From NCBI GenBank assembly GCA_902777385.1, contig CACYTP010000002.1:124001-188000 (forward strand): 64,000 nucleotides of DNA, read 5' to 3'. The notes beneath the pieces were generated by a model. That model was not told where the DNA came from. It did not search any database and worked only from the letters and a program-made list of their open reading frames with translations. This document shows positions 8,534 through 46,869 of this stretch, piece by piece. The DNA comes from an uncultured bacterium (GTDB lineage: Bacteria; Cyanobacteriota; Vampirovibrionia; Gastranaerophilales; Gastranaerophilaceae). Made by a program: the position numbers and the translations under genes. The stretch's first letter is position 1; every line of letters begins with the position of its first letter.

Positions 8534-8643
8534 ATCCAAATGTATATTACCCGAAAGATTATAAATAATCAACTAATTGGGTGATGTTAATTTTTGAATT
8601 TTGACGAAAATAGATAATGTAGAGAGTTTGTTTAGGAGAAATA

Positions 8644-8778
8644 ATGCAAACATTATCTAATGCAACCGTTGCAATAAAAGAGATTTGGGAGCTTCAACAT
8701 CCGATTATTCATAAGTGGTTTTTGTTTAGCTCAATTTCAATGGGTATTTTGTTTGCTGTTTTGTTTTTAGCTGTTTAA
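8644..8778 (+). CDS. Small single-pass membrane protein, 44 aa
   Basis: ATG at 8644 follows a strong TTTAGGAGAAATA site. The 44 residues (MQTLSNATVAIKEIWELQHP ... ending AVLFLAV) have a polar N-terminus with an IWELQHPIIHKW segment and one C-terminal membrane helix of about 18 residues. The gene sits alone on the plus strand between two leftward genes. The good ribosome-binding site and clean membrane segment argue for a real gene, but I do not know the family. The HPIIHKWF stretch gives two histidines near the membrane surface. Confidence 0.55.
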   Translation: MQTLSNATVAIKEIWELQHPIIHKWFLFSSISMGILFAVLFLAV

Positions 8779-8817
8779 CTAGTTAAGCTTTCCTGATTTA
8801 TTTTTATTAAAAGACTG

Positions 8818-9357
8818 TTAATATTGTTCAGTTATATTTACTGGTTCTAAGTCTACATAAGCATTATAATCTACTGAACCGAAAACGAGTTTGTATTTGC
8901 CATCTTCGTATATAAAATCTGCGAAATTTATTTCCGGTTCATTAAAATCATCAAGTGTTTCAATCGCTTCCAGTTTAGTCATTAGGAAGTATCCCTGATA
9001 GAGTTTTAGATATATTTTATTGTCTTTTTTTTCACTAATTACCTGATAGTGTCCTGTTGGTAATATCGCGTCATCCGGAAGCTTTACGTCTGTCGTAATA
9101 CTTACTACAGGTAATTCTGCAGCTTTTTTATTTATAATTTCAGTTTCATTCCCCTGATGAAAAGTCTCTCCTTTAGGCTTTTTAACTTTTTGTTTGCCTT
9201 TTTTTGCTTCAATTGCTTTGTCAAAGTCTTTTTCTGATACTGCTTTATTCCCGTAAAAATTTTGATCCCCAAAGTTATCCCATAAGTCACCCTCAGCAAA
9301 TACTACGTTGCTGCAGGAAATCAGAAATATAAAAATAGCGGATAATATCTTTTTCAT
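8818..9357 (-). CDS. Exported protein of unknown function
   Basis: The 179-residue product begins MKKILSAIFIFLISCSNVVFAEG, a clear Sec signal peptide with likely cleavage after VFA. The mature part has a short charged linker (KKGKQKVKKPKGE) and a beta-rich C-terminal half (LPTGHYQVISEKKDNKIYLKLYQGYF). It probably lies in the periplasm. No enzymatic motif is visible. No Shine-Dalgarno sequence precedes the ATG. It stands alone: the neighbour on one side is divergent, and on the other side the sigma-factor gene ends in a terminator before it. Confidence 0.7.
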   Translation of the reverse strand: MKKILSAIFIFLISCSNVVFAEGDLWDNFGDQNFYGNKAVSEKDFDKAIEAKKGKQKVKKPKGETFHQGNETEIINKKAAELPVVSITTDVKLPDDAILPTGHYQVISEKKDNKIYLKLYQGYFLMTKLEAIETLDDFNEPEINFADFIYEDGKYKLVFGSVDYNAYVDLEPVNITEQY

Positions 9358-9412
9358 ATTAATATATTTAATTATATATTTTAATTTGTAAACCTACGGA
9401 TGGAGTATGAGC

Positions 9413-10582: not shown

Positions 10583-11065
10583 ATGAAAAAGAAATTAATT
10601 ATCGGGTTAGTATTAATACTTGTTATAGCATTGTCTTCAGCTGTTACTTATGCTGTTACGTCAGGTGTATTTAACCAAAAGCATAAACCGTCTGATTATA
10701 AAGTTGGCGTTTCTTATGAAGAAGCAATGAATGGTGATAAACCTGTTTTGGCAGTATTTTATGTTGATTGGTGCGGATATTGCTTAAAATTTATGCCAAA
10801 ATTTAAGACATTAGAATCAGCTTATAAGTCTAAGTTTAATTTTTTAATGATTGATGCTGAAAATCCTGCAAGGGAAGACTTGATTAAAGATGTAAGATTA
10901 TCAGGATATCCTACTGTTTATATATTTGATCCGAAGTATGATAACAGAGTTCATATCAGCAGTTCATTTTATGGAGACTTAAAGGCTTTCAGATCTGAGG
11001 TAGACAGATATCTTAGAATTAGAAGTATTCTGGACAAGTCTTCTTCATGTGAGTGTTCAAAGTAA
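10583..11065 (+). CDS. Membrane-anchored thioredoxin-like protein
   Basis: The 160-residue protein starts MKKKLIIGLVLILVIALSSAVTYAV, a signal anchor that should place the rest outside the inner membrane. The thioredoxin fold carries VDWCGYCLKFMPKF, a CxxC redox centre, and the cis-proline region is LSGYPTVYIF. The tail ends SSSCECSK, adding two more cysteines. The likely role is disulphide exchange or reduction in the periplasm; CGYC is unlike the CPHC of DsbA. ATG at 10583 has GAGGGGAG at good spacing, so the upstream TTG at 10547 is rejected. The partner protein is not evident nearby. Confidence 0.82.
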   Translation: MKKKLIIGLVLILVIALSSAVTYAVTSGVFNQKHKPSDYKVGVSYEEAMNGDKPVLAVFYVDWCGYCLKFMPKFKTLESAYKSKFNFLMIDAENPAREDLIKDVRLSGYPTVYIFDPKYDNRVHISSSFYGDLKAFRSEVDRYLRIRSILDKSSSCECSK

Positions 11066-11075
11066 TTCGGCATAA

Positions 11076-11103
11076 AAAAAAGACCTTGAATTTTTCAAGG
11101 CCT
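11076..11103. terminator. Hairpin after the thioredoxin-like gene
   Basis: A 7-bp stem (11084-11090 with 11094-11100) with a 3-nt loop lies just after the stop codon at 11065. The poly-T tract is on the minus-strand side (from the A-run at 11074-11081), so on the plus strand it is a hairpin without a good U-run. Its function as a terminator for the plus-strand gene is therefore uncertain. Confidence 0.4.
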
Positions 11104-11215
11104 ATCCGTTTAAATAAGAAGAGAGAGCTTTATATTTATATTAAGTGTTCTAATTCGTAAAAATTGCTATTTTTTTATAGTATTTGTAATAATTCTTAAC
11201 AAATTGGGATATTAA

Positions 11216-27955: not shown

Positions 27956-28549
27956 TTATTTAGCAGATTTCATAAATCTGTGTAAATTTGCAACCGAAGT
28001 ATTATACTGTCTTGCAATAATTGTTTTTGGGACTTGTAAATCTACCAATTTTAAGATTTCTTCTGCGTGTTCATCAAGTTTAGATTTACCACGTCCTTTT
28101 GGTCTGCCTAACTTTTGTCCGTCTGCTTTCTTTGCTTGCAGGGCTTCAATTGTTCTTAAACTGATTAAATCTCTTTCAATTTGTGCAACAAGAGCAAATA
28201 CAGTTGTTGTTACAGTTGAAGTTATGCTTTTGTCGGTATTTGTAAAACCCTCTTTTATTGAATATAATTCAATCCCTTTTTGTTTTGTAATGTCGATTAC
28301 TTCAAAAATTTGTGTAATTGAACGTGCTATTCTTGAAAGTTCGGGAACAATTAAAATGTCGCCTTTTTCCATTTTTTCTAATAATGTACCTAACTGTCTG
28401 TTTTTAAAATTTGATTTACCGCTAATTTGTTCTTCAACAAATTCTACATTTCCAAGTTTCTTTTCATTCGCAAACTTTAAAACTTCAAGTTTGTTTTTCT
28501 CTGTGTTTTGGTCAATTGTGCTGACTCTCAAATAACTGTAAGTTGTCAT
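27956..28549 (-). CDS. Small serine recombinase (resolvase/invertase family)
   Basis: The 197-residue protein starts TYSYLRVSTIDQNTEKN, with the nucleophilic Ser in LRVST. It has GDILIVPELSRIARS, EGFTNTDKSITSTVTTTVFALVAQIERDLIS, the linker and helix-turn-helix LGRPKGRGKSKLDEHAEEI ... TIIARQYNTSVANLHRFMK. Length and layout match resolvase/DNA invertase enzymes (Tn3 resolvase, Hin, Pin). A res or hix site is not identified. It may resolve multimers of the element or invert a segment elsewhere. ATG with AGG at suitable spacing. Confidence 0.93.
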   Translation of the reverse strand: MTTYSYLRVSTIDQNTEKNKLEVLKFANEKKLGNVEFVEEQISGKSNFKNRQLGTLLEKMEKGDILIVPELSRIARSITQIFEVIDITKQKGIELYSIKEGFTNTDKSITSTVTTTVFALVAQIERDLISLRTIEALQAKKADGQKLGRPKGRGKSKLDEHAEEILKLVDLQVPKTIIARQYNTSVANLHRFMKSAK

Positions 28550-28988: not shown

Positions 28989-29795
28989 TTATTTTATTGC
29001 AGTATTATTAACATTAGGTGTAATAATAGTAGCTTTAATTTGTTTTGTCTCATAGTTAAATATCACTTTTAAATCTATACTATTACCAGTAAAGCCTGTT
29101 GGTAGTGGCTCAAATTTAAAGCTATATGCCGACATTTGTGTTTGAGCAGCTTTTACAATAGTTACTATTTTCTCATCTAAATACTTATCTTTAGAAAATT
29201 TGCTTATATCACATTTTAATAATCTTCCGTCATAAGCTATTTTTAATGTTAATTCAACTTGCCCATTTCCTGTATTATAAACATCTGAATAATACCCCGA
29301 ATTTTGCCAACTCTTTTTTAATGATTTTTGTAGTCTGTTTATATATCCTGTAAAATCTGCTTGACCCAACTTTAAATCTCCGTTATATCCAACTAGCCTC
29401 ATAGCACCTATGTTTGCTCTATACAATAACGAATTTGGAGTTAATTCGTTAAATTGTTTTGCTACTAGTGGTGTTAAAGCAGGATAACTTATTTCTTTTG
29501 CTAAATGTTCATTGTAATCGTATTCTGAATAAGATTTAACTATTCCTGCTTTTGTACCTTTACTTTGTACTATTGCAACTAGTCCACCACCCTCGTTTTT
29601 ATAATATCGTACGGTATAATATAAACTGTCATTATGTTCATTTACACTTGCTAAGTCTAATGACAATTTTTTTATATCATTATTTTCTATCGGTACATCA
29701 ACCCAATTTGAGCTATAAAATGCCATGGCATTATTACAGAATAAAAAACATATAGATACTATTAATATCTTAAAATAATGTATTTTCAGTTTCAT
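28989..29795 (-). CDS. Exported protein with TonB/TolA C-terminal-like domain
   Basis: The signal peptide MKLKIHYFKILIVSICFLFCNNAMAF is clear. The middle part is beta-rich. The C-terminal half (YINRLQKSLKKSWQNSGYYSD ... QVELTLKIAYDGRLLKCDI ... LDEKIVTIVKAAQ) follows the TonB_C/TolA_III pattern of helix, strand, strand, helix, strand. Such domains bind outer-membrane or periplasmic partners. Here the domain is on a freely exported protein instead of a membrane anchor. Last gene of the six-gene operon; its start overlaps the upstream gene by 26 bp. Confidence 0.68.
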   Translation of the reverse strand: MKLKIHYFKILIVSICFLFCNNAMAFYSSNWVDVPIENNDIKKLSLDLASVNEHNDSLYYTVRYYKNEGGGLVAIVQSKGTKAGIVKSYSEYDYNEHLAKEISYPALTPLVAKQFNELTPNSLLYRANIGAMRLVGYNGDLKLGQADFTGYINRLQKSLKKSWQNSGYYSDVYNTGNGQVELTLKIAYDGRLLKCDISKFSKDKYLDEKIVTIVKAAQTQMSAYSFKFEPLPTGFTGNSIDLKVIFNYETKQIKATIITPNVNNTAIK

Positions 29796-31056
29796 TATCC
29801 ATTTGCTCCTGTTTTTGTCTCTGCTCTTCCTTTTTACGCTGTTCTTCTTGTTGTTTTAGTTGTAATTCTTTTTCTTTTGTCGTTTTCAAAAGGGATTTAT
29901 GAGGTTTGCCATTTGGGTCATATACACAAATGGCTCTTTCTTTATAATAAATATTTTTGTAACCGAATTTATCCGCTATATATTGATGTGTTTCATCACT
30001 ATTCCATAAATCTCCCTTACTTCTCACTAAAGCTCTATCTTCGTCAAATGTTTCATTTTCCCATAAATAGATATTGTCGTGTTCCTGTTTTGGTGCAATT
30101 TTCCTTAATATTTCAAAATTAGTTGGAATATTAGAGTCTGAATATTTTTCGCTTTTTACATCAATTCCGCTATAGATTTCTATTCCTAAAATATCAGAAA
30201 ATAACGACCTTAATTCTTTGTCATTTGGTAATCTATAACCTTTACTTTCGCATGCGTCTTTTGCACCAAGCCAATAATTATACTTGTCTATTTTATTGAA
30301 ATCTTTAATTGGTTCTGCTTTAAATATTTTTGTTGTAAAGCAAGTTCCGTCAGATGTTTTATATACACAATTAGACAATATTTGTTCTCTGCGTATTCTT
30401 TCTTGTTCTTCTTTTGCTTTTAATTCATCATATTTTTCTTTTGTTTTTATTCTGTCTTCTGGGCGAAAGGATATACACATTGGAACAATTACATTTAACT
30501 GATTATGCTGAAATAATTTTTTGTTATTAACATAATCTTCAAAGTTTTGATTTTGTATTTTAAATTTAGTAATTGCAGGTTTACCTTTAACTAATTTATA
30601 ACTGTCAAATTCAATGGACGGTGCTTTTAAATTATCTTTATCTGCAATTTTAAAGGTCGGTATGTCGTCAATTTCTTTTATAATATCTATTTGCCAATCA
30701 TCAACAATTACATCTTCTTCTATAACTTCAATATCTGTAGTTTTATTTTTTGGATTATATTTAAAAGCAAATTTTATTGTTTCTTTATTTCCAACTGATG
30801 AAACACTAAAAGGTTTAATTTTATTATGATAATCTATTGCTTTAACTGTTCCAAAAGCAATAAGCGGTAAACCGATTACACAAGCAGAAATAATAACAAC
30901 TAAATTCTTTTTGAAAAATTGTTTAATATCCATGTTGCTTTTTTCTTCTGTAAAATTTTCTGTTGTATTTTCTTCCAAATTTTCTAAATTTGCTCCGCAA
31001 TTAGAACAGAATTTTTGATTTTCGCTTATTTCACTACCGCATTTAGGACAGTTCAT
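29770..31056 (-). CDS. Zinc-ribbon membrane protein with DUF1566-like lectin-fold domain
   Basis: The N-terminus MNCPKCGSEISENQKFCSNCGAN is a complete C4 zinc ribbon (CPKC ... CSNC). It is followed by an acidic linker and one membrane helix (LVVIISACVIGLPLIAFGTV, about 52-71). The long external part ends in a domain with NYWLGAKDACESKGYRLPNDKELRSLF and YKERAICV, which resembles the DUF1566/FGE-like fold seen in adhesins and pilin-like proteins. The final 45 residues are a charged Gln/Lys/Glu coil. Fifth gene of the operon. Confidence 0.65.
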   Translation of the reverse strand: MNCPKCGSEISENQKFCSNCGANLENLEENTTENFTEEKSNMDIKQFFKKNLVVIISACVIGLPLIAFGTVKAIDYHNKIKPFSVSSVGNKETIKFAFKYNPKNKTTDIEVIEEDVIVDDWQIDIIKEIDDIPTFKIADKDNLKAPSIEFDSYKLVKGKPAITKFKIQNQNFEDYVNNKKLFQHNQLNVIVPMCISFRPEDRIKTKEKYDELKAKEEQERIRREQILSNCVYKTSDGTCFTTKIFKAEPIKDFNKIDKYNYWLGAKDACESKGYRLPNDKELRSLFSDILGIEIYSGIDVKSEKYSDSNIPTNFEILRKIAPKQEHDNIYLWENETFDEDRALVRSKGDLWNSDETHQYIADKFGYKNIYYKERAICVYDPNGKPHKSLLKTTKEKELQLKQQEEQRKKEEQRQKQEQMDNETENTLF

Positions 31057-31071
31057 TTTTATTACTCCTTA

Positions 31072-32325
31072 TTAATTTTTATATAGTGCATTGTAATAAA
31101 TTTGTCCGTTTTTATATTCTGAATATTTTTCATCACCAAAAGCTTTTGGATATTCAGCAAATATAGAATTACCATTTTTATCAAAATATTCATATTCAGG
31201 GAATATAATGTCACCGGAGTTATCAATGTAAATTTTATAAATAGCATAAAAAGCATTGTCATATAAATCAAATAAAAAATTATTGTCTTCTGCTCCTTTG
31301 TATATCTTAAAATATCCCTCTCTGTAATTATCAGTTATTTTTAAAGACTTTGTATCAAAATAAATATGGTCTTTAAGTTTTTTCCATGTTTCATTTTGTT
31401 CTAATTGCAAAGAAGCGTACCATTGTTTAATGTTTTTGTATTCCTGTATGTTATTGTCTTTTATTGATAAAAATTTTTGATATAAAGCTTTATCATTATC
31501 GCTATCACAATAATAATTTTTATATTCGCTAAATCTTGACATATAATTTTTTAAATCACTATTTATAATATCCTGCATACAAAAGTTCGGATAAATGCTT
31601 AAAAATTTTATCTCATCATAAAATGAATCTAACCACCAATTATTATCGCTAAAAATTTTTAAATACTCTTTCCACTCTTTGCTTAAGTTTTTTGAATATT
31701 TTTTTATCATATATTCATCGTTTATTTCTGCCCCCCAAATACCTTCTTCTATTGGTACTATTCTAATTATATCGGTTTGCGGATTGGTAATTTTATATGC
31801 ATCCTCGTTGGTATAATTGATGGTAATATTTTTAACAATAAAAGATTTCTGTTCATTTTCTGCGTAATCATAAATATCAAAAGATAATTTACTATCCATA
31901 TCAGACTTTTTGCCTGTAAACAAAAGCACATTTCGGTAAAAAGTTTCAAACAACTTATCAATATTTGCATTTGGATGTTTGCTAATATATTTATCTAAAT
32001 CAGTTTCTTGTTGTACCAATATATCAAGAGCCTGTCGTTCCGTCATATTTTTTATTTCAGTCTGTTCTATCGGCACTACAGACATGTATGTTGAAATATC
32101 TGCCTTTGGTAGTGTAAATGCAAAAATTCCGATAATACAAAATGCAAATATTATAGCAAAAGTTATAAGTATTGGTTTCTTTTTTAAAATATTATTTGTT
32201 TGTTTCTCGCTTGGTATTTCCGATGAATTTTGAAGCTTTTCTTCAATTCCGTTTATTTCTGCACCACAATTTGTACAGAATTTTTGATTTTCATTTATTT
32301 CATTACCGCAGTTTGGACAGTTCAT
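31072..32325 (-). CDS. Zinc-ribbon single-pass membrane protein, 417 aa
   Basis: Starts MNCPNCGNEINENQKFCTNCGAE, nearly the same zinc ribbon as the downstream gene. A linker and one membrane helix follow (ILITFAIIFAFCIIGIFAFTLP, about 53-74), then a large extracytoplasmic domain (SVVPIEQTEIKNMTERQALDIL ...) rich in Lys, Asp, Asn and aromatic residues. The ribbon stays in the cytoplasm and the bulk is outside. The external domain is not recognised and differs from its neighbour, so the shared N-terminus is probably a common assembly or sensing tag. AAGGAGCAATAATG start. Confidence 0.65.
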   Translation of the reverse strand: MNCPNCGNEINENQKFCTNCGAEINGIEEKLQNSSEIPSEKQTNNILKKKPILITFAIIFAFCIIGIFAFTLPKADISTYMSVVPIEQTEIKNMTERQALDILVQQETDLDKYISKHPNANIDKLFETFYRNVLLFTGKKSDMDSKLSFDIYDYAENEQKSFIVKNITINYTNEDAYKITNPQTDIIRIVPIEEGIWGAEINDEYMIKKYSKNLSKEWKEYLKIFSDNNWWLDSFYDEIKFLSIYPNFCMQDIINSDLKNYMSRFSEYKNYYCDSDNDKALYQKFLSIKDNNIQEYKNIKQWYASLQLEQNETWKKLKDHIYFDTKSLKITDNYREGYFKIYKGAEDNNFLFDLYDNAFYAIYKIYIDNSGDIIFPEYEYFDKNGNSIFAEYPKAFGDEKYSEYKNGQIYYNALYKN

Positions 32326-32334
32326 TATTGCTCC

Positions 32335-32988
32335 TTATTTACATAAATCTATAACAGTACTAATCAGTTTATCTGCCGATTTTATCTCATCCTCTGAACA
32401 ATATGTCCTAATATCGTTCATTGCGTTTCCCATTTGTAATATTGCGGTTTTACTATTTCCGATAGCATATTCATATAAAGCACAATATAATTGAACAAAA
32501 GCCTTACCTTCTTTTGTTTCTGCTATTTCAGAACTTAATGCAGAATAATACATATTTTTGTAATCATTCAAAATATCTTGTTTGCTTGTATCTGCCTTTA
32601 ATAATGTTCTTAATTCCTCATCGCTTGCATTTGCATATATATTTATTTTTTTAAAAGGCACAGCCTTTAATATGTTTTTTAAATTTTTATCTGTTATTTT
32701 CGGTTCTATGTTATTTTGCAAAGTACGACACAAAATTAAACGAACAGAGGCAGAAATTTCATCATTTTTTATAAGTTCTATATATCCACGTATTACATAT
32801 TCATAATCTTGTTGAGTTTTTGCATTTTGATATATCAAGTTAAATGTTTTATAAGCGTTTTGAACATCTTTTTGGTTTATGTAAGTCCAAGCTTGTTTAT
32901 TTAATTGTGCTGTATTGAGAGATGTTGCAGAAAAACTCGGTAAAATTAATAAAAAACAAAATACTAAAGATAATATTACTCTTTTCAT
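32335..32988 (-). CDS. Exported helical-repeat protein, 217 aa
   Basis: MKRVILSLVFCFLLILPSFSATS is a Sec signal peptide, probably cleaved after SFS or FSA. The mature protein is helical with a TPR-like look (NKQAWTYINQKDVQNAYKTFNLIYQNAK and KTAILQMGNAMNDI). It contains one CRTLQNN and a YCSEDE cysteine. It probably mediates protein contacts in the periplasm. Third gene of the operon, with gaps of 5 and 9 bp on either side and its own AAGGAG site. Confidence 0.65.
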   Translation of the reverse strand: MKRVILSLVFCFLLILPSFSATSLNTAQLNKQAWTYINQKDVQNAYKTFNLIYQNAKTQQDYEYVIRGYIELIKNDEISASVRLILCRTLQNNIEPKITDKNLKNILKAVPFKKINIYANASDEELRTLLKADTSKQDILNDYKNMYYSALSSEIAETKEGKAFVQLYCALYEYAIGNSKTAILQMGNAMNDIRTYCSEDEIKSADKLISTVIDLCK

Positions 32989-32993
32989 ATATG

Positions 32994-33395
32994 TTACTCC
33001 TTATTGTTATTTTGTTTTAACAACTGCATGGATATATCATTTAACTTTTTATTAATTCTTATATAAGCAATAATTGAAAAGGATGTAACAATACCTATAC
33101 AAATACTTACACCAAAACCAACAACCTCAATAGCATTGTATATTTGTTTAAATACATTTTCGTCATTATAATCATTTAATGTAATACCGAATTTTAAACA
33201 TACTAAAAAGCCTATTACAAAGGCAAATATAGAAAAACATATAAGGTAAGATAACGATTCTAACGCAGAAGAAGGCTTTTTATCTTTTTTTATTTTTTCC
33301 TTTTTTGTTAAATCTTTACCGCATTCTTTGCAGTAAATATCATTATTATTGTTTTCTGTTCCACACTTCGGACATTTAATTTTTTCTTCTGTCAT
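32994..33395 (-). CDS. Zinc-ribbon protein with two membrane helices, 133 aa
   Basis: The ribbon is IKCPKCGTENNNNDIYCKECGKD (two CxxC pairs). A Lys-rich linker is followed by two membrane helices (about 45-68 and 88-110) and a short C-terminal cytoplasmic tail ending KKLNDISMQLLKQNNNKE. The ribbon and tail face the cytoplasm, unlike the one-helix relatives downstream. Second gene of the operon. AAGGAGTAAAAATTATG gives a solid start. Confidence 0.68.
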   Translation of the reverse strand: MTEEKIKCPKCGTENNNNDIYCKECGKDLTKKEKIKKDKKPSSALESLSYLICFSIFAFVIGFLVCLKFGITLNDYNDENVFKQIYNAIEVVGFGVSICIGIVTSFSIIAYIRINKKLNDISMQLLKQNNNKE

Positions 33396-33413: not shown

Positions 33414-34058
33414 TTATTTAGTATCAATTGCTTTATGTTTTTTGGCACTGTGTTTTTGATGTGCCTTTTTACCACCTCCTATCCACCAAAAATATGCGTC
33501 AATTAAACGCATTGGTGGATAATTGTTAGGAAAATTCTTTTTATATATTTTGTCTGATAAATTTTGTAATTTTTTATAACTACTTTTATTAAATCTTTGA
33601 GTTATTTTATGTTTAGATAAACCTTTTTTAAAAAAGTTATCATAAGCAGGAACACAGCCAAATATACCCATTAAAACTTTTGTAATTAGTGTGTCTGTCG
33701 GAGTTATATTATGTTCTCCATAATATTTTTTTATTTCATCATACGCAGGTTTTATATCATCAAATTGTACATTTGTTTTATACAAATTATCACATTTTTC
33801 TAATAGATTTTTTATTAAAGTCTTATGTATCTTGTAATCGTTCCATAATAAATTAGATGAACCTCTATACATACCCCAACTTGCTAAATAAAAAGCTAAA
33901 TTAAGACTTGCCAAATCAAGTAAATTTTCATCTTTTAAGATTTTAATTTTATTACTTTTAAAGAATTTATAACAATGTTCCCACGATAAATACCTACTAT
34001 TTGTATCATCTTTCCAAGTATTAAAAAATTCATCAAGTATTTTGTTAATATCTTCCAA
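33414..34058 (-). CDS. Hypothetical soluble protein heading the six-gene operon
   Basis: The 214-residue protein starts with TTG at 34058; AAAGGG precedes it at normal distance and no earlier ATG is available. It is rich in Lys, Asn and aromatic residues (ILDEFFNTWKDDTNSRYLSWEHCYKFF) with a GIFGCVPAYDNFFKKGLSKHKITQRFN segment and a basic tail (GGGKKAHQKHSAKKHKA). No signal peptide or membrane helix. Its start lies 46 bp from the left inverted repeat of the proposed invertible segment, so its transcription may depend on the orientation of that segment. Family not recognised. Confidence 0.65.
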   Translation of the reverse strand: MEDINKILDEFFNTWKDDTNSRYLSWEHCYKFFKSNKIKILKDENLLDLASLNLAFYLASWGMYRGSSNLLWNDYKIHKTLIKNLLEKCDNLYKTNVQFDDIKPAYDEIKKYYGEHNITPTDTLITKVLMGIFGCVPAYDNFFKKGLSKHKITQRFNKSSYKKLQNLSDKIYKKNFPNNYPPMRLIDAYFWWIGGGKKAHQKHSAKKHKAIDTK

Positions 34059-34104
34059 TTTATTACCCTTTAGCCATTCCTTTGATAATTTGTCAGGTAA
34101 TCGA

Positions 34105-34128
34105 TTAACAATATATCTAATTTGTTAA
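34105..34128. repeat. Left 24-bp inverted repeat of putative invertible segment
   Basis: A perfect 24-bp inverted match to 34270-34293. The repeat itself has inverted 7-bp ends (TTAACAA ... TTGTTAA) around a 10-bp centre, the form of a tyrosine-recombinase crossover site. Confidence 0.85.
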
Positions 34129-34269
34129 GGGTTTTTAGGAACATTGATATTATTGAATTAGAAACAATTATTTTTTATAAAAATTAAAATCGTTTAACAT
34201 TTTTTGATACATTTTGCATACCTTTTTTATTTGTGATACTGTGATTTTAGTAGGTCTTTTGAAAATCGT
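34129..34269. other. Putative 141-bp invertible DNA segment
   Basis: The segment lies between the two 24-bp repeats, 70 bp from a FimB-like recombinase gene, and contains a promoter that now points rightward. This is the arrangement of the fimS switch of enterobacteria. Inversion would aim the promoter at the six-gene operon that begins at 34058. An extra half-site AATCGTTTAACA lies inside at about 34188-34199. Inversion is inferred; only one orientation is visible here. Confidence 0.6.
34153..34181 (+). promoter_or_regulatory. Promoter inside the invertible segment (currently pointing away from the operon)
   Basis: TTGAAT at 34153-34158 and TATAAA at 34176-34181 are exactly 17 bp apart. In this orientation transcription runs toward the recombinase gene in antisense; after inversion it would run into the gene at 34058. 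Confidence 0.55.
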
Positions 34270-34293
34270 TTAACAAATTAGATATATTGTTAA
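34270..34293. repeat. Right 24-bp inverted repeat of putative invertible segment
   Basis: The inverted partner of 34105-34128. The bases outside the 24 bp (AATCG on the left and GGGTT on the right of each copy) run in the same direction at both sites, while the 10-bp centre is inverted. This is what one exchange within the centre would leave if the sites had been symmetric before. Confidence 0.85.
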
Positions 34294-34338
34294 GGGTTCA
34301 AAATGTAACGCATTTACTGTTAATAAAGAGTTTAAAGG

Positions 34339-34881
34339 CTATAAAACAAAATTATTGTAGGAATAATCTATTTCATCCTGCTCTATTCCTATGTATCTTA
34401 ATGTTATTTGCGGACTTGAATGGTTAAAAATTTTTTGCAGTAAAACTACATCTTTAAACTGCTGATAATGGTGATACCCGAAAGATTTTCTCATTGAGTG
34501 CGTTCCGATTTTCTCCTGTAATTTTGCCTGTTTGCAAGCATTTTTAATAATAAAATATGCTGTAACTCTGTCTAACCTATGCCCCCAACGAGATAAAAAT
34601 AACGGCTCATCATTTTTTCTTCCTTTGATAAATTCCTCTAATAATGGCTTTAATTTTGTATTTATTGGGAATTTTTTAAATTTTCCTGTTTTCTTTTCTG
34701 TTATTTGTATATGTGTTTTGTTCCGAACATCGCCCACATTTAGATTTAAAATGTCGGATATTCTAAGTCCGCAATTTGTCCCTATAACAAAAAGCAATAA
34801 TTCCCTTTGCCCTTGTTTTGCCAGTATCTTTTCAACTTTCTGTATGTCTTTTTTGTTTCTAATCGGCTCAACTGTAGTCAT
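34339..34881 (-). CDS. FimB-like tyrosine recombinase
   Basis: The 180-residue protein consists only of the catalytic domain, like FimB/FimE (about 200 aa). All catalytic residues are in place: Arg40 in NCGLRISD, Lys64 or 65 in the beta hairpin, His128-x-x-Arg131 in THSMRKSFG, His154 in FNHSS and Tyr163 in LRYIG. The ATG at 34881 has GGGGGA at good spacing; the ATG at 34887 is too close to it. The inverted repeats next to its 3' end are the obvious substrate. It may also act elsewhere in the genome. Confidence 0.9.
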   Translation of the reverse strand: MTTVEPIRNKKDIQKVEKILAKQGQRELLLFVIGTNCGLRISDILNLNVGDVRNKTHIQITEKKTGKFKKFPINTKLKPLLEEFIKGRKNDEPLFLSRWGHRLDRVTAYFIIKNACKQAKLQEKIGTHSMRKSFGYHHYQQFKDVVLLQKIFNHSSPQITLRYIGIEQDEIDYSYNNFVL

Positions 34882-35143
34882 AATCATTCCCCCTTTTGTT
34901 TTAATTTAAAATTACAAAATGGTTGATTTTAAATAAAATGGTAAGTGATAACCCTTGTAAAATTCTCTGTGTCGGCTGATGTTGATAAAATTTTGTTTAT
35001 AGTATTTTTACACTTTTGTTTTTAAATCTGTTATATTAACTTTCCCATGGCGAATGCAGATTTTTTAATTTTGCTTATATTATGAATTTTGGGAGTCCGT
35101 TTTTTATAGTGTTACTTATTCGGTTTTCTTTTATAATTAAGGT

Positions 35144-35568: not shown

Positions 35569-35865
35569 TTAAAAAATATCTTTTCCGCTTTTTTCAGCAA
35601 TTTCTGTTTTGTCTTTGCTTTCAACGAATTTATCAAAATGATATTTTACACATTTATTCAATAATTTACGGTCTGTAATCCCTAAATAATCTAAAATTGC
35701 TTTTTGTTTTGCTTTTATTTCTTTTTTTGTTTGTGAAAATGCTTTTAACATATTAGCTATAAAAGTTTCATTGTGAGAATCTTTAAAAGCTATTGTTTTT
35801 TGTCCGTCCCACATAGTAATAATTTTTCTGCCGACTCTAAATTTAATATATCTGCCATTATGCAT
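35569..35865 (-). CDS. Hypothetical basic protein, 98 aa, downstream of the reverse transcriptase
   Basis: Starts MHNGRYIKFRVGRKIITMWDGQKT after AAAGGGAAATAAAATG. It has a beta-rich N-terminal third, then a long basic helix (SQTKKEIKAKQKAILDYLGI) and a Lys-rich tail. It lies 21 bp downstream of the reverse transcriptase and is probably in the same transcript. In retrons the gene next to the reverse transcriptase is often the effector or an accessory DNA-binding subunit. I do not recognise a toxin fold, so the role is open. Confidence 0.6.
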   Translation of the reverse strand: MHNGRYIKFRVGRKIITMWDGQKTIAFKDSHNETFIANMLKAFSQTKKEIKAKQKAILDYLGITDRKLLNKCVKYHFDKFVESKDKTEIAEKSGKDIF

Positions 35866-35886: not shown

Positions 35887-36801
35887 TTAAATATTTTTAT
35901 TTTTCTGTAATTTCTTTAATTGCTTAATTGCGTTATTTTTTGTTTTTACCATGGTTAGTGGTTTAAATTGTTGAATATAGCTGATTTTTGCAATAATTTC
36001 CTGTAATTTTGTTATAGACATTGCCGTTAATTCTTTTTCTTTTAATGCTTTTATTACAGAATGTCCAATACAAAATGGTGCTAACAATTTCCCGCTTTGA
36101 GATATATGTACACCTGTAACAACTGCATATTTATAGCCGTATCTTTTAGTTTTTGATTTCTTAATATGCAAACCATGTCGTTTTAATGAGTTTTTAATGT
36201 ACTGTATGACCCAGTTGCCAACATGCCCATGGGTTGAAATTGTTATATCATCAACATAAACAGTCATCAGAACATCTAATTCCTGCATTTTCTTGTATAT
36301 ATTGTCAAATATTTCTTTGTGAGCAAAACAAACTAATAATGTACTTGTGGGTGCTCCTGTTGGTAAATATCCGTTATATGTTGTTAATGCCACTAAAAAA
36401 TCTAATACTTCGCCTGTTGCTCCTAATTCTTCTGCAAAGAATTTTCTAATATATTTTTCTTGTGTATTTGGAAAACAATGTGAAATATCTGTTGTAATTA
36501 CTTCACGCATAAAACGGTGTACCATGGCATTTTTTATATTGTTCTGTCCTTTAAACCCAGCCATACAGTATTGCGGACATTTTAAGCATTTTTGCAAATA
36601 TTTCAATAATTTTTGCTGTAATATTTTTAAATCATCATTAGGTGCTTCTATCCATCTGAATTTACCATTTTTAAATTTTTTATATCTTTTATAACCTTTT
36701 TCTATTGCTTGTATTATTTCTGATATTTCTTTACATTCAAGCATATTTAATATATCCTCAACAGTATTCAAACTGTTAGGAACAATTTTTTTAGTTTCCA
36801 T
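35887..36801 (-). CDS. Retron-type reverse transcriptase
   Basis: A 304-residue reverse transcriptase without maturase or endonuclease domains. Landmarks are KFRWIEAPNDDLKILQQKLL (RT motif 1 area), AGFKGQNNIKNAMVH with the retron region X signature NAxxH at 91-95, TTDISHCFP (first catalytic Asp), LPTGAPTS at 147-153, YVDD at 182-185, and VTG at 228-230, the region Y signature that recognises the msr RNA. NAxxH and VTG together set retron enzymes apart from group II intron and DGR enzymes. It would make msDNA from a nearby ncRNA, and retrons act as anti-phage systems with an effector. AAAGGA precedes the ATG. Confidence 0.88.
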   Translation of the reverse strand: METKKIVPNSLNTVEDILNMLECKEISEIIQAIEKGYKRYKKFKNGKFRWIEAPNDDLKILQQKLLKYLQKCLKCPQYCMAGFKGQNNIKNAMVHRFMREVITTDISHCFPNTQEKYIRKFFAEELGATGEVLDFLVALTTYNGYLPTGAPTSTLLVCFAHKEIFDNIYKKMQELDVLMTVYVDDITISTHGHVGNWVIQYIKNSLKRHGLHIKKSKTKRYGYKYAVVTGVHISQSGKLLAPFCIGHSVIKALKEKELTAMSITKLQEIIAKISYIQQFKPLTMVKTKNNAIKQLKKLQKNKNI

Positions 36802-39885: not shown

Positions 39886-39929
39886 AAACGGAACTTTAAC
39901 GGAACTTTTTGCGGAACCTAAACGGAACC
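39886..39929. repeat. Array of four CGGAAC direct repeats
   Basis: AAACGGAAC (39886-39894), AACGGAAC (39898-39905), GCGGAACC (39911-39918) and AAACGGAACC (39920-39929) lie in the same direction at 9-13 bp spacing. The last touches the stop codon of the GmrSD gene. The same unit, in both orientations, is clustered at 42373-42419. These look like multiple binding sites for one protein, such as the transposase or a repressor. Confidence 0.7.
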
Positions 39930-42031
39930 TATTTATTTTTGCAAAAAGGAATATGTAGTAAATCTAATTTTGCATCTTCATTTTCAAATTTAATATTCCA
40001 ACGTTTTTCCATAAAATCTAGCAATTTTATCCCTCTGTCTTTTATATTATTAGGGTTCCAATCTGTATAGTCCTGACTAACCTCAATTGAACTATATGAA
40101 GATTTACTAAAACGTTCTTTTTTATCACTGTATTTCTTGTTTTGTATTTCAGAATTTATAGATTGAGATAGTGGTAATAAATTACCCAAAGAATTAGTTA
40201 AGTATTTTATTTCATCATCATTATAATCCTTAAACATCCTATGCCAATATTCATCATCAGGCGTTTGAGGATATATATGTTCTATTGAGAAATGGTCTTT
40301 TTTGTTTTTTTGGATAAATACATTCCAATCTATCTTTGGATTGCCATTGTTTTCAACTTTTTCACATTCGTACTCATATAAGAAATACTTTAAATCACTC
40401 CAACCATAGAAACCCTTGTTATCATTATATAATCTCGTAATGTAATCTTTAAAAGGTTGGTAATTAAATATTCCATTTTTCATTAACCATTCATCTGTAA
40501 TTTTATTTAAATCGTTGCAAAATTCATCAATTGATTTTTTATTATCACATAGCAATTTTGCTTCGCTTTGAAATTTACTACTTTTGTAATTTGATAAAGC
40601 CTTTCCTGTTCTAAATACTAAAAATATAAAACGCTCAATGCTTTTTAGCAGCTTTATTCTAGCAGTATCATCAATTTGGTTATTCATAAATGATGCTAAA
40701 ATAAGTGGTCTAAAATATGCAATACCGACTCTGTTCAGTTTACTAAGCCATTTTGCTTCATCCTCTGTAATTATTTTGTTATCTTCTTTTTCCCCTAAAT
40801 CTGGGCATTTAATTGCAAACCAATATTTTGAAGCATTACCAATACTTTTTACAAAATTTTGAATATCAGCAAGTGATAATTTTGTTGATTCATCCAAAGA
40901 ATCATCTTCCATATTTTCAAATTCTTGAGATTCATCTACATCTTCATTCTCTATAAGCTCTTCTCTGATATCTATATTGTTATTTTTCGCTTGGATATAA
41001 TTTTCAGTTATATTTTTTGGTATAAACTTCTTTTTAAGAAGATAATCAATGTAATCATCACCTTTATTCCTAGAAAATTTAAAATATGTTATCCAATGAG
41101 CTTTTAAAAATTCATCGGCATCAAGTAATTTATCTTTATTTTTACCTAAATTTGAATAAATGTTTTGCCATTCTTTATTTATAGTTTCTCTTAATGAATT
41201 TTTTGTTTCATCATCACAACTATACAAATTAACTAAGTATATTAACCTGTTTTTTAATAATTCTAATTTTGAAAGAGCTTTGCCTCTATTATTCATTGTT
41301 TCAAATGCGACAAAAACATCAAAATCATTATTTAATTCATAATAATTAAACTTTAGACGATTGACTATTTTATTAAACAACGCAAATAAATCTTCTTCGC
41401 TATGATGTTCTGAATAATCTAATAAATTTGAATTAAAAAAGTCTAATGCGTTTTGTAAATTTTTAGTATAGTAATCTTCCTTTGTATTCTTATTGTCATC
41501 TTGTGATAGAATATTAGTTTTTAAATATTCAAAACTAGGATTATTTTTGTCATATCCAAATTTAAATGTTGTTATTACCTTGTTTTCGGGTTCTTTTTCG
41601 CAAATATATTGTTCTATTATAGATTTTAATGAATTTGAATTGATATAAATATCTTCATGATTTTTATTTGAATATTTATCTTGTTTAATTATTAAATCTA
41701 TAAACGACTTTATAAAAATTATACAGGTTGTTAATCTTTGTTGACCGTCAACAATATAATATGGAACATACTTTTTATTCTTTATTAACCATTGCTCATC
41801 ATTCCACTTTCCAATTTCTTTTTTGGTAGATAAATCGACTTTTGTTACAGTTATCATTCCCGTATAATGATAGATTTCTTTATTACTATCATTTTGTTTG
41901 TTTTCAGGTATATTTACTAAATCTTCCCAAAATTCATCTAATTCTTTGTTCGTCCACGCATACCCTCTTTGGTAATCAGGGATTCTAAATAAACGTTTTG
42001 TAAATAAATCATCAAGTGTTAATAAATCCAT
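39929..42031 (-). CDS. GmrSD-type restriction endonuclease (DUF262 + DUF1524)
   Basis: A 700-residue protein. The N-terminal DUF262 domain has FRIPDYQRGYAW (about 16-27) and YYIVDGQQRLTT with the DGQQR nucleotide-binding motif. The C-terminal DUF1524 domain has the His-Me finger motif FSIEHIYPQTP and SLGNLLPLSQSINSEIQNK. The family includes type IV enzymes that cut phage DNA with modified bases, using NTP hydrolysis in the DUF262 part, here in one chain as in GmrSD fusions. It lies 8 bp downstream of a Mor-like regulator on the same strand and is bracketed by CGGAAC arrays. Confidence 0.88.
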   Translation of the reverse strand: MDLLTLDDLFTKRLFRIPDYQRGYAWTNKELDEFWEDLVNIPENKQNDSNKEIYHYTGMITVTKVDLSTKKEIGKWNDEQWLIKNKKYVPYYIVDGQQRLTTCIIFIKSFIDLIIKQDKYSNKNHEDIYINSNSLKSIIEQYICEKEPENKVITTFKFGYDKNNPSFEYLKTNILSQDDNKNTKEDYYTKNLQNALDFFNSNLLDYSEHHSEEDLFALFNKIVNRLKFNYYELNNDFDVFVAFETMNNRGKALSKLELLKNRLIYLVNLYSCDDETKNSLRETINKEWQNIYSNLGKNKDKLLDADEFLKAHWITYFKFSRNKGDDYIDYLLKKKFIPKNITENYIQAKNNNIDIREELIENEDVDESQEFENMEDDSLDESTKLSLADIQNFVKSIGNASKYWFAIKCPDLGEKEDNKIITEDEAKWLSKLNRVGIAYFRPLILASFMNNQIDDTARIKLLKSIERFIFLVFRTGKALSNYKSSKFQSEAKLLCDNKKSIDEFCNDLNKITDEWLMKNGIFNYQPFKDYITRLYNDNKGFYGWSDLKYFLYEYECEKVENNGNPKIDWNVFIQKNKKDHFSIEHIYPQTPDDEYWHRMFKDYNDDEIKYLTNSLGNLLPLSQSINSEIQNKKYSDKKERFSKSSYSSIEVSQDYTDWNPNNIKDRGIKLLDFMEKRWNIKFENEDAKLDLLHIPFCKNK

Positions 42032-42419: not shown

Positions 42420-42577
42420 GAAAAAGGGCACTATTATATACAAAAATTTTGCCTTTGCAATACAACAAAATCTTTGTTTTTGTAGGTTTGAAATGGCACT
42501 TGTTGATATGTTTCGATATGGATACATTGACTACCAATTTCTGGGGAGCAGAGTTAATGTGTGAAAGGAGAAAAATT

Positions 42578-44548
42578 ATGCAAAATTCAAATGTAGACTG
42601 GATTACAACAAAAGAACTCGCAGAAATTAAAGGTATATCTGAAAGAGCTGTTCGTAAGTCCATCGCTAAAAACAAGTATGTTATAAGGAAAAGTTCAAAA
42701 TCTTATGAAATTTTAGTAACATCTTTGGAAGAAAGTGTTAGAAAAAAAGTAACAGAACGCAGAGAAAAATCAACAGCACTTGTTCCAATTAATTATGTTG
42801 TTCCTGAAGAGCAAAAGAAATTGGCTCTTGCAAAATATGACCTGATTAAAAATTGGGATAAATTCAGGAATGAAAAAACCAACAAAACACAAGCAGGAAA
42901 AGATTTTCTTGATGCATACAATAATAATTGTTTATGCAAAAACTTATTTGTTGCAATAGGAAAAGTTGCTATCGGTACAATTTACGAATGGCATAAAAAA
43001 CTTCGGGAATATAATGACGATTGGCATAGTTTAATCAATAATTACACATTTGGAGCCAAAACAACAAAGACATTATTAACAGAAGCCGAGAAATCAGAAC
43101 TACTAAAAAATCTCTTACATCCAAACCAGTTAAATATTGGGAAAGCTATTAAATATACTAAAATGGCATTAAAAGGCAGGGGATATGAAAATTTATGCTG
43201 TGATTTAACTTACCGAAGATTCGCAAATAATTACAAGGCGGAACATTATGATGTTTGGGTGGAAGCTCGTGAAGGAAATAAAGCTCTGCACGATAAAGTT
43301 CTCCCATATATTACAAGAGACGTTTCAAAACTTGAAGTCGGAGATGTCATCATTGGCGATGGGCATAGATTAGCATTTTTTGTTAGGAACCCATACACAG
43401 GAAATCCTGTCAGACCAACATTAGTTGCGTACCAAGATTGGAAATCAGGCGGCTTTGTAGGATTTGAAATAATGCTTGAAGAAAATACTCAATGTATTGC
43501 CTCGGCTTTAAGAAATTCAATTATAAATCTCGGTAAAGTTCCAAGATTTGTATATCAGGATAACGGTAAAGCTTTTAAAGCGAAATATTTTACAGAGGAT
43601 GGGATATCAGGTTTATTCAAAAATCTTGGTATTCAAGCTATATCCGCAAAACCATATAATGCAAAAGCAAAGCCTATTGAAAGGTTATTCAGGGAATTGC
43701 AAGATAGTTTTGAAGTTATGCTCCCATCATACACCGGAACAAGTATTATTAAAAAGCCGGCTCAATTAAAAAGGAACGAAAAACTCCATAAAGAGTTATT
43801 CAAATTAAATATTCCGACAATAGAGCAAGTTATTTTGGTTTTAAATGCTTGGTTGCAAAAATATCATTATGAACAACCCTGTCCACATGTTGAAGGTAAG
43901 ACCATAGGGGAAGTCATTAGTGCCGGCAGAGGCGAGGAAGTTAATATCAAAACTTTGGATGACCTTATGATGGCTCGCAAAATCAAGAATATTCAGAGAA
44001 ACGGAATAAAATTCTTGAAAAACGATTATTTTGACCAAGCTCTATATGGTTATAAGAAAAATGTAATTATAAAATACAGCCTATTTAATTTAAGTTCAAT
44101 TAAAGTTTATAAATTAAGTGGTGAGTTTATTTGCGAAGCTAAAAGAGTTGATCCGTCAGACCCTTTAGCAAATTATCTTGGAAATGCTAAAGATATTGAA
44201 GATTTAAAACAAAAAACAAAATTGAAGAAGCAATTAGAAAAAAGAACAGAAACAGAATTTGTAAATCACTTAAAAAGAGCACAAGTACATAATCCGTTAT
44301 TAACAATGGATTTACCTGAGAAACAGGAAGAAGATGAGATACAAGAATTTAGTATTGAAGTTAAAAAGCAAGCAAATAAAGAAATTTTTAATGGAATTTT
44401 CAAAAATAAATACGAAAAATATGAATATTTGCTCCAAAAAGATACTCTAACCAAAGACGAACAAGACTGGATTGAAGAATACAGGAAAACTGGTGAATAT
44501 GAATTAATATACTGTGATGAAAGTGATAAGGAGGTAATTGATGCATAA
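42578..44548 (+). CDS. Mu-like DDE transposase (MuA/TnsB type)
   Basis: ATG at 42578 follows GAAAGGAGAAAAATT; the 656-residue protein is close to MuA in length. An N-terminal winged helix (WITTKELAEIKGISERAVRKSI) for end or enhancer binding is followed by further DNA-binding domains. The RNase H-like core has Asp261 (IIGDGHRL), Asp328 (VYQDNGKAF) and Glu368 (AKPIERLFREL). The basic C-terminal part should contact the ATPase. It would perform replicative or cut-and-paste strand transfer. It overlaps the ATPase gene by 8 bp. Confidence 0.93.
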   Translation: MQNSNVDWITTKELAEIKGISERAVRKSIAKNKYVIRKSSKSYEILVTSLEESVRKKVTERREKSTALVPINYVVPEEQKKLALAKYDLIKNWDKFRNEKTNKTQAGKDFLDAYNNNCLCKNLFVAIGKVAIGTIYEWHKKLREYNDDWHSLINNYTFGAKTTKTLLTEAEKSELLKNLLHPNQLNIGKAIKYTKMALKGRGYENLCCDLTYRRFANNYKAEHYDVWVEAREGNKALHDKVLPYITRDVSKLEVGDVIIGDGHRLAFFVRNPYTGNPVRPTLVAYQDWKSGGFVGFEIMLEENTQCIASALRNSIINLGKVPRFVYQDNGKAFKAKYFTEDGISGLFKNLGIQAISAKPYNAKAKPIERLFRELQDSFEVMLPSYTGTSIIKKPAQLKRNEKLHKELFKLNIPTIEQVILVLNAWLQKYHYEQPCPHVEGKTIGEVISAGRGEEVNIKTLDDLMMARKIKNIQRNGIKFLKNDYFDQALYGYKKNVIIKYSLFNLSSIKVYKLSGEFICEAKRVDPSDPLANYLGNAKDIEDLKQKTKLKKQLEKRTETEFVNHLKRAQVHNPLLTMDLPEKQEEDEIQEFSIEVKKQANKEIFNGIFKNKYEKYEYLLQKDTLTKDEQDWIEEYRKTGEYELIYCDESDKEVIDA

Positions 44549-45230
44549 ATTGTTTGTTAAAACTCGTAATGTTAAAAACTTTATCGGATTAATGAATAAT
44601 CTGATAGACAAATCCAATGAAGTTCCAAAAATGGGATTAGTTTATGGCGATCCCGGATTAGGTAAAACACAAACTGCTGTATGGTGGGCAACAAGAAATG
44701 ATGCCGTTTATGTCAGAGCTCAAAACAAAATGACAAGTCGATGGCTAATGGAAAAAATTGTTTTTGAACTCGGAGAATCCCCATCAAGAAAAATGGCTAA
44801 CCTTATGGAACAATGTATTGCTCATTTAAGATTAAAACCTCAAGTAATTATCATTGACGAAATTGACTATCTAATAAGCCGCAATAAAATTATTGAAACG
44901 ATCAGAGATGTACACGATTTAACAGGAACACCTGTTGTATTAATCGGAATGCAGGAAGCTAAAACAAAACTTGGCAAATACAGGCATCTGTACGATAGGT
45001 TATCTGAAATTATAGAATTTAAACCATTTTCAAAAGAGGATATGGAAGTTATTGTTGAAGAATTATCCGAAATTAAAATAACTGATGAGGCAAAAGAAAT
45101 ATTTTTTGAAAAAACTAACCGCTTTCGCCAAATTATCAAAGGAATTTCATTGCTTGAAAATTTAGCGGCGACAAACGGATTAAACAAAATTGATGTAAAG
45201 CAAGTGAAAGGATTGAACATTGAAAAGTAG
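44541..45230 (+). CDS. MuB/TnsC-like AAA+ ATPase
   Basis: ATG at 44541 has AAGGAGGTAATTG before it. The 229-residue protein carries Walker A GDPGLGKT (36-43), Walker B VIIIDEID (102-109), sensor region PVVLIGMQEAK and an arginine-rich C-terminal helical part. It matches the target-selection ATPases of Mu and Tn7-like systems, which form filaments on target DNA and recruit or activate the transposase. It overlaps the preceding and the following genes, so all three are translationally coupled. Confidence 0.9.
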   Translation: MHKLFVKTRNVKNFIGLMNNLIDKSNEVPKMGLVYGDPGLGKTQTAVWWATRNDAVYVRAQNKMTSRWLMEKIVFELGESPSRKMANLMEQCIAHLRLKPQVIIIDEIDYLISRNKIIETIRDVHDLTGTPVVLIGMQEAKTKLGKYRHLYDRLSEIIEFKPFSKEDMEVIVEELSEIKITDEAKEIFFEKTNRFRQIIKGISLLENLAATNGLNKIDVKQVKGLNIEK

Positions 45231-46869
45231 AGATTTAATAATAAAAACAGCAAGAAGATTAGATAAATTTAATCTTGATGAATTAATAGTTGTATCAGAA
45301 CTTGACGAAAAAGAAGTAACGGAAATTTTATCGGATTTAATTAAACAACAAATTATTTTGAAAAATAATAATACTTATTTTTTCAACACTAAAAAGTCCG
45401 CAGAAATTACCAATAATGACGTTGATGAAACAATAAGTGAATTTAAACCGATAGTTATTGAGGAAGAGGAAGGTTATGAGGATTTTCTGAAATTTGGAGA
45501 AGAAACTCAAAATCGTGTAAGAGCATACGTCGGATTATTAAACTTAATTCACCAAGCAGGAACAAAAAATATAAATAAAGTTGTAGAGTTGTTTAATGAA
45601 ACATCAGGTTATCCAAGAATTGCACCTTCGACTTTTACAAGAATCCGCAGGAAATACAGCCAATACGGTTTTAGAGGGATACTTCCAAAATTCAGTAAAC
45701 ATATAACAGTTGCTATTCCTGATGAAATATATACTTGTTTCAAAAAATATTATTTAACTAATGAAAAATTATCCGCTCAAGAAGCAATATACAGAGCTCA
45801 AAAGGAATTACAATCAGAGCAAAAGATTGAGCAACCTTATGCTTATACTTCTACCCCTTTTGTAAGAAAAGTAAGAACGGAATTCACAAAAGAGCAAATT
45901 GAATATTTCAGAAATAATATAGAGGCTCAAAAGCCTAAATTTGAGCCGATTAAAGTAAAAGAACCTCTTGATATGAAGTTTGAAAAAGCCGCATACATAT
46001 ATTTAAAACATCTAAAAATGGAAAACAAACTCGAAAGATTAATGCACGATAAAACTAATTATAAAAACCATTTAAAACCGTATTTTGATAATTTATCAAT
46101 AAGAGAAATAACGACAAAAGTTGTGGCTCAATTTAAACAAAGTATGTTTGATAATGGTTTCCAACTTGTGTCAGTAAATATTTATATTACATTACTGAAA
46201 TTAATTATAAAAACCGTTTGTCCTTTAACAAATAGTCTTGTCGTAAGAAACAACTCTAAACAAAGAGTTTATAGCGTTGATATGAATATTTTATCAGATA
46301 AGAAAATTGCTGAATTACTAAATATTTGTATAAAAAAATATCCTGCGGCATACCCTGTAATTTATTTGAGTTTATCAACGGGAGCAAGTGTTCCTGAAAT
46401 ATTAGCCTTAACTTGGGAAAGGATAAATTTTGAAGATAATATGGTATTTTTGAAATATTTTCTATATGAACAACGTCTTGTTATGAATAGATGCGGCTCA
46501 ACAATAAGAAAATTAAAATTTGATGACAATATTTTCGGCATTCTGAAAAAGAAATTTGAAGGAACAAATCCTGAATTAACAGATTTTGTATTCAAATTTG
46601 ACTCTCCAAAATCTCCTCAACAGTATATAGAAAATGTCGTATTAAGAGGATTATCTGCACATCTTGGAATAGTAAGACTGCACCCAAGCGATTTACAGCA
46701 TAATTTTGTAAATATGTGCTTAAAACAAAATGTTCCGATTACTTTTATTCAAAAATCATTAGGATACTATGGTTTACCCAATTTTATAAGAATATACAAA
46801 GATTTAATCGCAAATTTGGATAAAGGAAATTATAATCCGCTCAATAAAATTTTAGAAAACAAGGAGTAA
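45220..46869 (+). CDS. Transposon third protein: HTH domains fused to a catalytically degenerate tyrosine-recombinase domain
   Basis: The 549-residue protein starts with TTG at 45220; AAAGGA precedes it and the frame has no nearby ATG. A winged-helix segment (LDKFNLDELIVVSELDEKEV) and a MuA-like helix-turn-helix region (GYPRIAPSTFTRIRRKYSQYG, about 130-150) precede a core-binding domain and a C-terminal tyrosine-recombinase fold. In the fold the first Arg is Ser (TGASVPEIL, 390), HxxR is SDLQ (490-493) and the third His is Tyr (SLGYYG, 516), while the Tyr remains (IRIYKDL, 526). It should bind DNA but not recombine, perhaps choosing targets or ends. Confidence 0.78.
   Translation: MKSRDLIIKTARRLDKFNLDELIVVSELDEKEVTEILSDLIKQQIILKNNNTYFFNTKKSAEITNNDVDETISEFKPIVIEEEEGYEDFLKFGEETQNRVRAYVGLLNLIHQAGTKNINKVVELFNETSGYPRIAPSTFTRIRRKYSQYGFRGILPKFSKHITVAIPDEIYTCFKKYYLTNEKLSAQEAIYRAQKELQSEQKIEQPYAYTSTPFVRKVRTEFTKEQIEYFRNNIEAQKPKFEPIKVKEPLDMKFEKAAYIYLKHLKMENKLERLMHDKTNYKNHLKPYFDNLSIREITTKVVAQFKQSMFDNGFQLVSVNIYITLLKLIIKTVCPLTNSLVVRNNSKQRVYSVDMNILSDKKIAELLNICIKKYPAAYPVIYLSLSTGASVPEILALTWERINFEDNMVFLKYFLYEQRLVMNRCGSTIRKLKFDDNIFGILKKKFEGTNPELTDFVFKFDSPKSPQQYIENVVLRGLSAHLGIVRLHPSDLQHNFVNMCLKQNVPITFIQKSLGYYGLPNFIRIYKDLIANLDKGNYNPLNKILENKE

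Follow-up and report, generated by a model that had tools for sequence, protein, structure and literature searches.

The locus lies in what we call the window, i.e. the whole 64-kb stretch of DNA that was analysed, which belongs to contig C2 in a genome of 2.32 Mb. Six minus-strand genes follow one another here in tandem, with 5-18 bp or an overlap between neighbours. The operon is headed by a gene with a TTG start that encodes a 214-aa protein (33414-34058). It is followed by genes for a protein with a zinc ribbon and apparent transmembrane segments (32994-33395), a 217-aa protein with a signal-like N-terminus (32335-32988), two proteins of 417 and 428 aa that each combine a zinc ribbon with an apparent transmembrane segment (31072-32325 and 29770-31056, respectively) and a 268-aa protein with a TonB C-terminal-like domain (28989-29795; Pfam TonB_2, 5.5e-07). 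The initial annotation described a six-gene membrane operon, which agrees with the number of genes, the zinc-ribbon/transmembrane proteins and the TonB_2 match, but the 214-aa product of the first gene is not evidently a membrane protein. A predicted structure of this protein was unusable (pLDDT 41). At the far end of the operon, a minus-strand gene (27956-28549) encodes a serine recombinase of the Mpi family, which scores 171.9 bits with the PRK13413 model, below its cut-off of 272. A homologue of this serine recombinase also adjoins a homologous operon in another locus (L152).

On the other side of the operon lies the minus-strand gene of a small tyrosine recombinase (34339-34887; Pfam PF00589, Phage_integrase, 2.7e-24), which we presume to be the inverter as judged by this match, its catalytic residues and its paralogues. 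The protein has a length of 180-182 aa with a conserved start at 34881 and consists of the catalytic domain only. Its R, K, HxxR, H and Y residues align with those of XerA/XerH, and its stop codon is separated by 45 bp from the nearer of two inverted repeats. Thus, the earlier description of a small tyrosine recombinase with an intact catalytic set beside the repeats was borne out. The same description had called the system Fim-like, which is apt for the working principle but not for family membership, as the recombinase remains far below the curated cut-offs of the FimB/FimE models (48.9 bits versus 222 for PRK09871, 37 versus 221 for PRK09870). It also falls below those of the full-length XerD (67.3 bits versus 329.6) and XerC (63 versus 335) models. 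A second recombinase gene as in the FimB/FimE pair is absent at the switch, which holds one such gene only; paralogues are found at other loci.

Further features were noted in the window. A reverse transcriptase (35887-36801, minus strand) has its best match among the PADLOC RT_VI retron-type models (4.2e-61) and, together with a small ORF downstream of it (35569-35865, minus strand), possibly forms a retron. A 700-aa protein (39929-42031, minus strand) matches the PADLOC HEC-06/Orf5 defence models. Three plus-strand ORFs (42449-46869) encode a large transposase-like protein, a TnsC-like ATPase and an integrase-like protein and look like a transposon or a Mu-like element.

Recombination sites and the embedded promoter

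Between the recombinase gene and the operon, perfect 24-bp inverted repeats (34105-34128 and 34270-34293) enclose an interior of 141 bp (34129-34269), exactly as the initial annotation had reported. With gaps of 20-500 bp allowed, this pair is the longest perfect inverted repeat of the 64-kb window; the runner-up measures 14 bp, and the maximum over 30 first-order Markov shuffles was 16. The recombinase-proximal site (34270-34293) obtains a position weight matrix score of 18.7 and contains the asymmetric 6-bp centre TAGATA (34279-34284; TATCTA on the minus strand), while the operon-proximal site (34105-34128) carries the centre TATCTA at 34114-34119, inverted relative to the other site. An exact search of the genome for this site pattern returned nothing beyond the two known copies. 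Across loci, the aligned sites share palindromic arms that flank an asymmetric 6-bp centre, mostly of the form TA-N-Y-Y-A.

The outer bases of the window's sites, AATCG..GGGTT, are directly repeated and their centres are inverted. Each site's outer arm resembles the inner arm of the other site (AACCC with AACCC, ATCG with ATCG). Since inversion exchanges the inner arms between the sites, the two arms within each site would match after a flip. The pattern noted earlier is real, and its reading as the product of exchange within the centre, i.e. of a past swap of inner arms, fits but is only suggestive; among other loci the pattern is inconsistent.

The interior contains a candidate promoter on the plus strand (34214-34242), with a -35 element TTGCAT (34214-34219), a 17-bp spacer including a TG dinucleotide (34234-34235) and a -10 element TACTGT (34237-34242). 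It includes the window's copy, TTTGTGATACTGT at 34230-34242, of a motif that recurs among related loci. This motif, TTTGTGDTAWTRT, was found 22-29 nt from the exit end with at least 10/13 matching positions in 29/42 interiors, compared to 10% of shuffles, and with at least 11/13 in 55% of interiors against a null of 1.8%; the excess is partly built in because these loci also served to define the motif. That the motif keeps its position in either orientation, however, does not follow from this definition. The motif points away from the operon (OFF) in 19 rows and toward it (ON) in 10, some of these calls being doubtful, such as the ON call of L032, whose interior aligns forward with that of the window. 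A putative embedded outward promoter whose direction depends on orientation is thus seen by comparison only, through a motif that is fixed in ON and OFF loci alike.

The promoter had originally been placed at TTGAAT/TATAAA (34153-34181). This pair does exist, but conservation of the motif favours the extended -10 element TTGCAT-N17-TACTGT, which is probably the promoter instead. The TATAAA half is not conserved in L018 and L032. Nor do sigma-70-like matches exceed chance in this region, which contains 5 compared to 7.0 in shuffles. Both candidates share their direction, and the earlier assignment of an OFF state stands: TTGCAT-N17-TACTGT points to the recombinase, and the operon is thus OFF in this assembly.

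Natural inversion in related loci

We compared related loci for a flipped segment. Over 1.4 kb comprising the recombinase and a Stealth gene, L063 is nearly identical to L064/L065, and the interior alone is inverted (129/129 nt as reverse complement). Likewise, L022 and L023, in which a second recombinase is associated with a switch before an autotransporter-like gene, are identical over about 1.8 kb except for an inverted interior (247/247 nt as reverse complement). In both cases the near-identical loci come from different metagenome-assembled genomes (MAGs). Two locus pairs that differ by an exact inversion between the repeats show natural inversion for the family, and such flips are hard to explain without inversion. 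Moreover, the degraded paralogue C23 matches the recombinase of the window on one strand and its interior on the other, the interior aligning as reverse complement only (79/93 in reverse versus 64/89 in forward orientation). L018, the closest related locus, belongs to another genus. Its switch has the same layout, precedes a homologue of the first operon gene and is oriented as in the window. Among 13 genomes of the window's own genus, no second copy of this operon switch was found, and with it no flip of the same locus. Both orientations are thus seen in relatives and in the reversed paralogue, whereas the window locus is known in one assembled orientation; where both orientations are mixed, a MAG assembly may retain just one of them.

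Judging from these sequence comparisons, we give a probability of about 0.92 to the reading that the locus is a phase-variation switch, i.e. an invertible promoter, currently OFF, with a dedicated small tyrosine recombinase next to it. The exact inversions in relatives, the reversed paralogue and the constant position of the promoter motif in either orientation all support the invertible promoter proposed at the outset. The recombinase would bind the palindromic arms TTAACAA/TTGTTAA of both sites and exchange strands within the asymmetric centre TATCTA, whereby about 150 bp would be inverted. Depending on the orientation, the embedded promoter would point to the six-gene operon (ON) or, as in this assembly (OFF), to the 3' end of the recombinase gene. 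We infer that natural inversion, shown for the family by the relatives, extends to the window copy, which would still flip through the neighbouring recombinase and no other enzyme, and that the promoter would transcribe.

The same data bear on three other explanations. It is very improbable that the repeats form an operator or a resolution or attachment site that does not invert, with the direct outer bases as the trace of a former direct repeat: the directly repeated AATCG/GGGTT and the direct forward-forward site pairs found in some loci would fit, but the exact inversions in two locus pairs and the dominance of forward-reverse pairs largely refute it. The promoter could also have been invertible once and be stuck OFF in this strain. 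Such decay does occur, as the paralogous recombinases C7 and C23 are broken, and OFF is the only state seen here and in L018. However, both the recombinase ORF and its catalytic residues are intact, and the sites match perfectly over 24 bp though decay would erode them, which makes this explanation unlikely.

Finally, another enzyme might invert the segment, either the serine recombinase of the Mpi family at the operon's far end, given its match to the Mpi master-invertase model and its homologue in L152, or one of the intact paralogous tyrosine recombinases acting in trans from elsewhere in the genome. We regard this as improbable, as at many loci these sites are again found about 45 bp from a member of this tyrosine recombinase family and the arm-6 bp-arm arrangement is the form of a tyrosine recombinase site. 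Furthermore, the arm sequences vary together with those of the recombinases (Mantel r 0.515, 0/5000 permutations; interior control 0.327), which supports the neighbouring enzyme and also reflects descent, specificity and shared descent not being separated by this measure.

Distribution and putative accessory half-sites of the switch family

The proposed phase-variation switch of the window shares its layout with most relatives: the recombinase gene is followed after about 45 bp by a site, then by an interior of about 140 bp, the inverted site and the operon. We scanned 70 distinct downstream regions with a matrix built on the aligned sites (background 0.05 sites per 700 bp). In 35/70, one forward and one reverse site (F-R) were present and no others; in the window, the sites begin 45 and 210 nt after the recombinase. 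With the matrix used, 20/70 regions scored no site, some of them having divergent arms while others may lack a switch. An F-F-R arrangement occurred in five of the 70 regions, including the paralogue C19, at about 48, 196 and 360. Three-site arrays of this kind are found in L011 (C19), L034, which has a fourth weak site, L041, L042, L048 and L072; those of C19, L034 and L048, read by eye, contain a promoter-like motif in each interval. In L153, a locus of another genome with a homologous operon, a divergent helix-turn-helix gene occupies the position of the switch.

This recombinase type is present six times in the genome; two copies (C7 and C23) are broken, and the paralogues are 57-90% identical. 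As read from translations, the neighbours behind the paralogues comprise a polysaccharide operon (C8), glycosyltransferases (C19), a TagF-like transferase and a flippase (C7), DHHW/MBOAT genes (C23) and a radical-SAM/Cys-rich peptide cluster (C4). The 59 proteins downstream of relatives repeatedly include glycosyltransferases, UDP-galactopyranose mutase, nucleotidyl transferases and Stealth proteins. In C23 (L013), the degraded recombinase is fused by deletion into its own switch (around 10987-11120) and a site nearly identical to that of the window is retained, so that recombination between the two loci is conceivable. In L015, a Cys-rich 90-aa protein (7944-8216, minus strand) has a radical-SAM protein (8213-9391, minus strand) and a ClpP-like protease (7433-7990, minus strand) as neighbours; lying downstream of a recombinase of the window's family, this group resembles a RiPP cluster that is possibly controlled by a switch.

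Close relatives of the recombinase stem nearly all from MAGs labelled Candidatus Gastranaerophilales or Melainabacteria, many of them from animal guts. At E<=1e-55, the recombinase was detected in 193/288 genomes of the same family, covering 34/41 genera, and in a sample drawn from across the phylum all genomes matching at E<=1e-50 (66/66) belong to the Gastranaerophilaceae, the family of the window. More distant phage recombinases (39-54% identical, L168 on) are mostly devoid of a downstream repeat pair, and the switch is thus a feature of the closer clade. A phage-borne branch is seen in L154 and L020-L043, Mu-like phage contigs in which the same recombinase and switch follow the head genes and a small helix-turn-helix-like gene comes next.

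Two further elements resemble half-sites. The first, GTTACATTTT (34300-34310, minus strand), lies about 16 bp outside the recombinase-proximal site; here, C.TTACATTTT is conserved in a position-specific manner at -26..-16 over 40 non-redundant loci and resembles the site arms. The second, CGTTTAACATTTTTT (34191-34205, plus strand), is located inside the interior just upstream of the promoter -35, and a AACATTTTT block is conserved at -40..-32 from the -10 hexamer (29 rows). These putative accessory half-sites would help to assemble or bias the synaptic complex. As a tentative extension, which we hold at clearly less than even odds, the family may constitute a switch type in which conserved accessory half-sites, one outside the proximal site and one within the element, the latter moved and reoriented by each flip, allow a single catalytic-domain-only tyrosine recombinase to set the direction bias. 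The three-site F-F-R form might then choose between two promoters or delete one, acting as a small promoter shuffler.

Comparison with known systems and biological meaning

Additional recombinase-binding motifs beside a tyrosine recombinase core site are known from TnpI of Tn4430, which resolves directly repeated sites. The likeness rests on these extra motifs, whereas the main site pair is inverted here. By sequence, XerC/XerD/XerA are closest and also use two palindromic arms around a short asymmetric centre, but the present enzyme has about 180 aa, lacks the N-terminal domain and would act on local paired inverted sites rather than on dif. E. coli fimS with FimB/FimE is alike in its short inverted promoter segment, its adjacent tyrosine recombinase of roughly 200 aa and the ON/OFF control of a surface operon. 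It differs in employing two recombinases instead of one, and the present system has 24-bp repeats with a 6-bp asymmetric centre, a 141-bp interior and conserved extra half-sites, and often stands before glycan and envelope genes in a gut cyanobacterial lineage. Bacteroides genomes (Mpi; Tsr tyrosine recombinases) likewise contain several invertible promoters, many of which precede operons for capsule or surface polysaccharides; however, Mpi belongs to the serine recombinases and acts in trans on many promoters, whereas in the present system a small tyrosine recombinase of its own lies next to each switch.

In gut bacteria, invertible promoters that precede genes for capsules and other surface structures are well known (PMC8375218, PMC11892184, PMC11868660). 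Within the literature searched, which covered papers outside subscription, none joined Gastranaerophilales with phase variation, and no inverton paper dealt with the lineage. Our data indicate that a common gut lineage of non-photosynthetic cyanobacteria varies its surface by DNA inversion, with the recombinase present in about two thirds of the searched genomes and switches of this kind in Gastranaerophilaceae standing before capsule, adhesin and other genes. With the single-recombinase layout and the conserved extra half-sites, the question of how one enzyme biases ON and OFF becomes directly testable, and the sites are ready targets for reading switch states from metagenomes.
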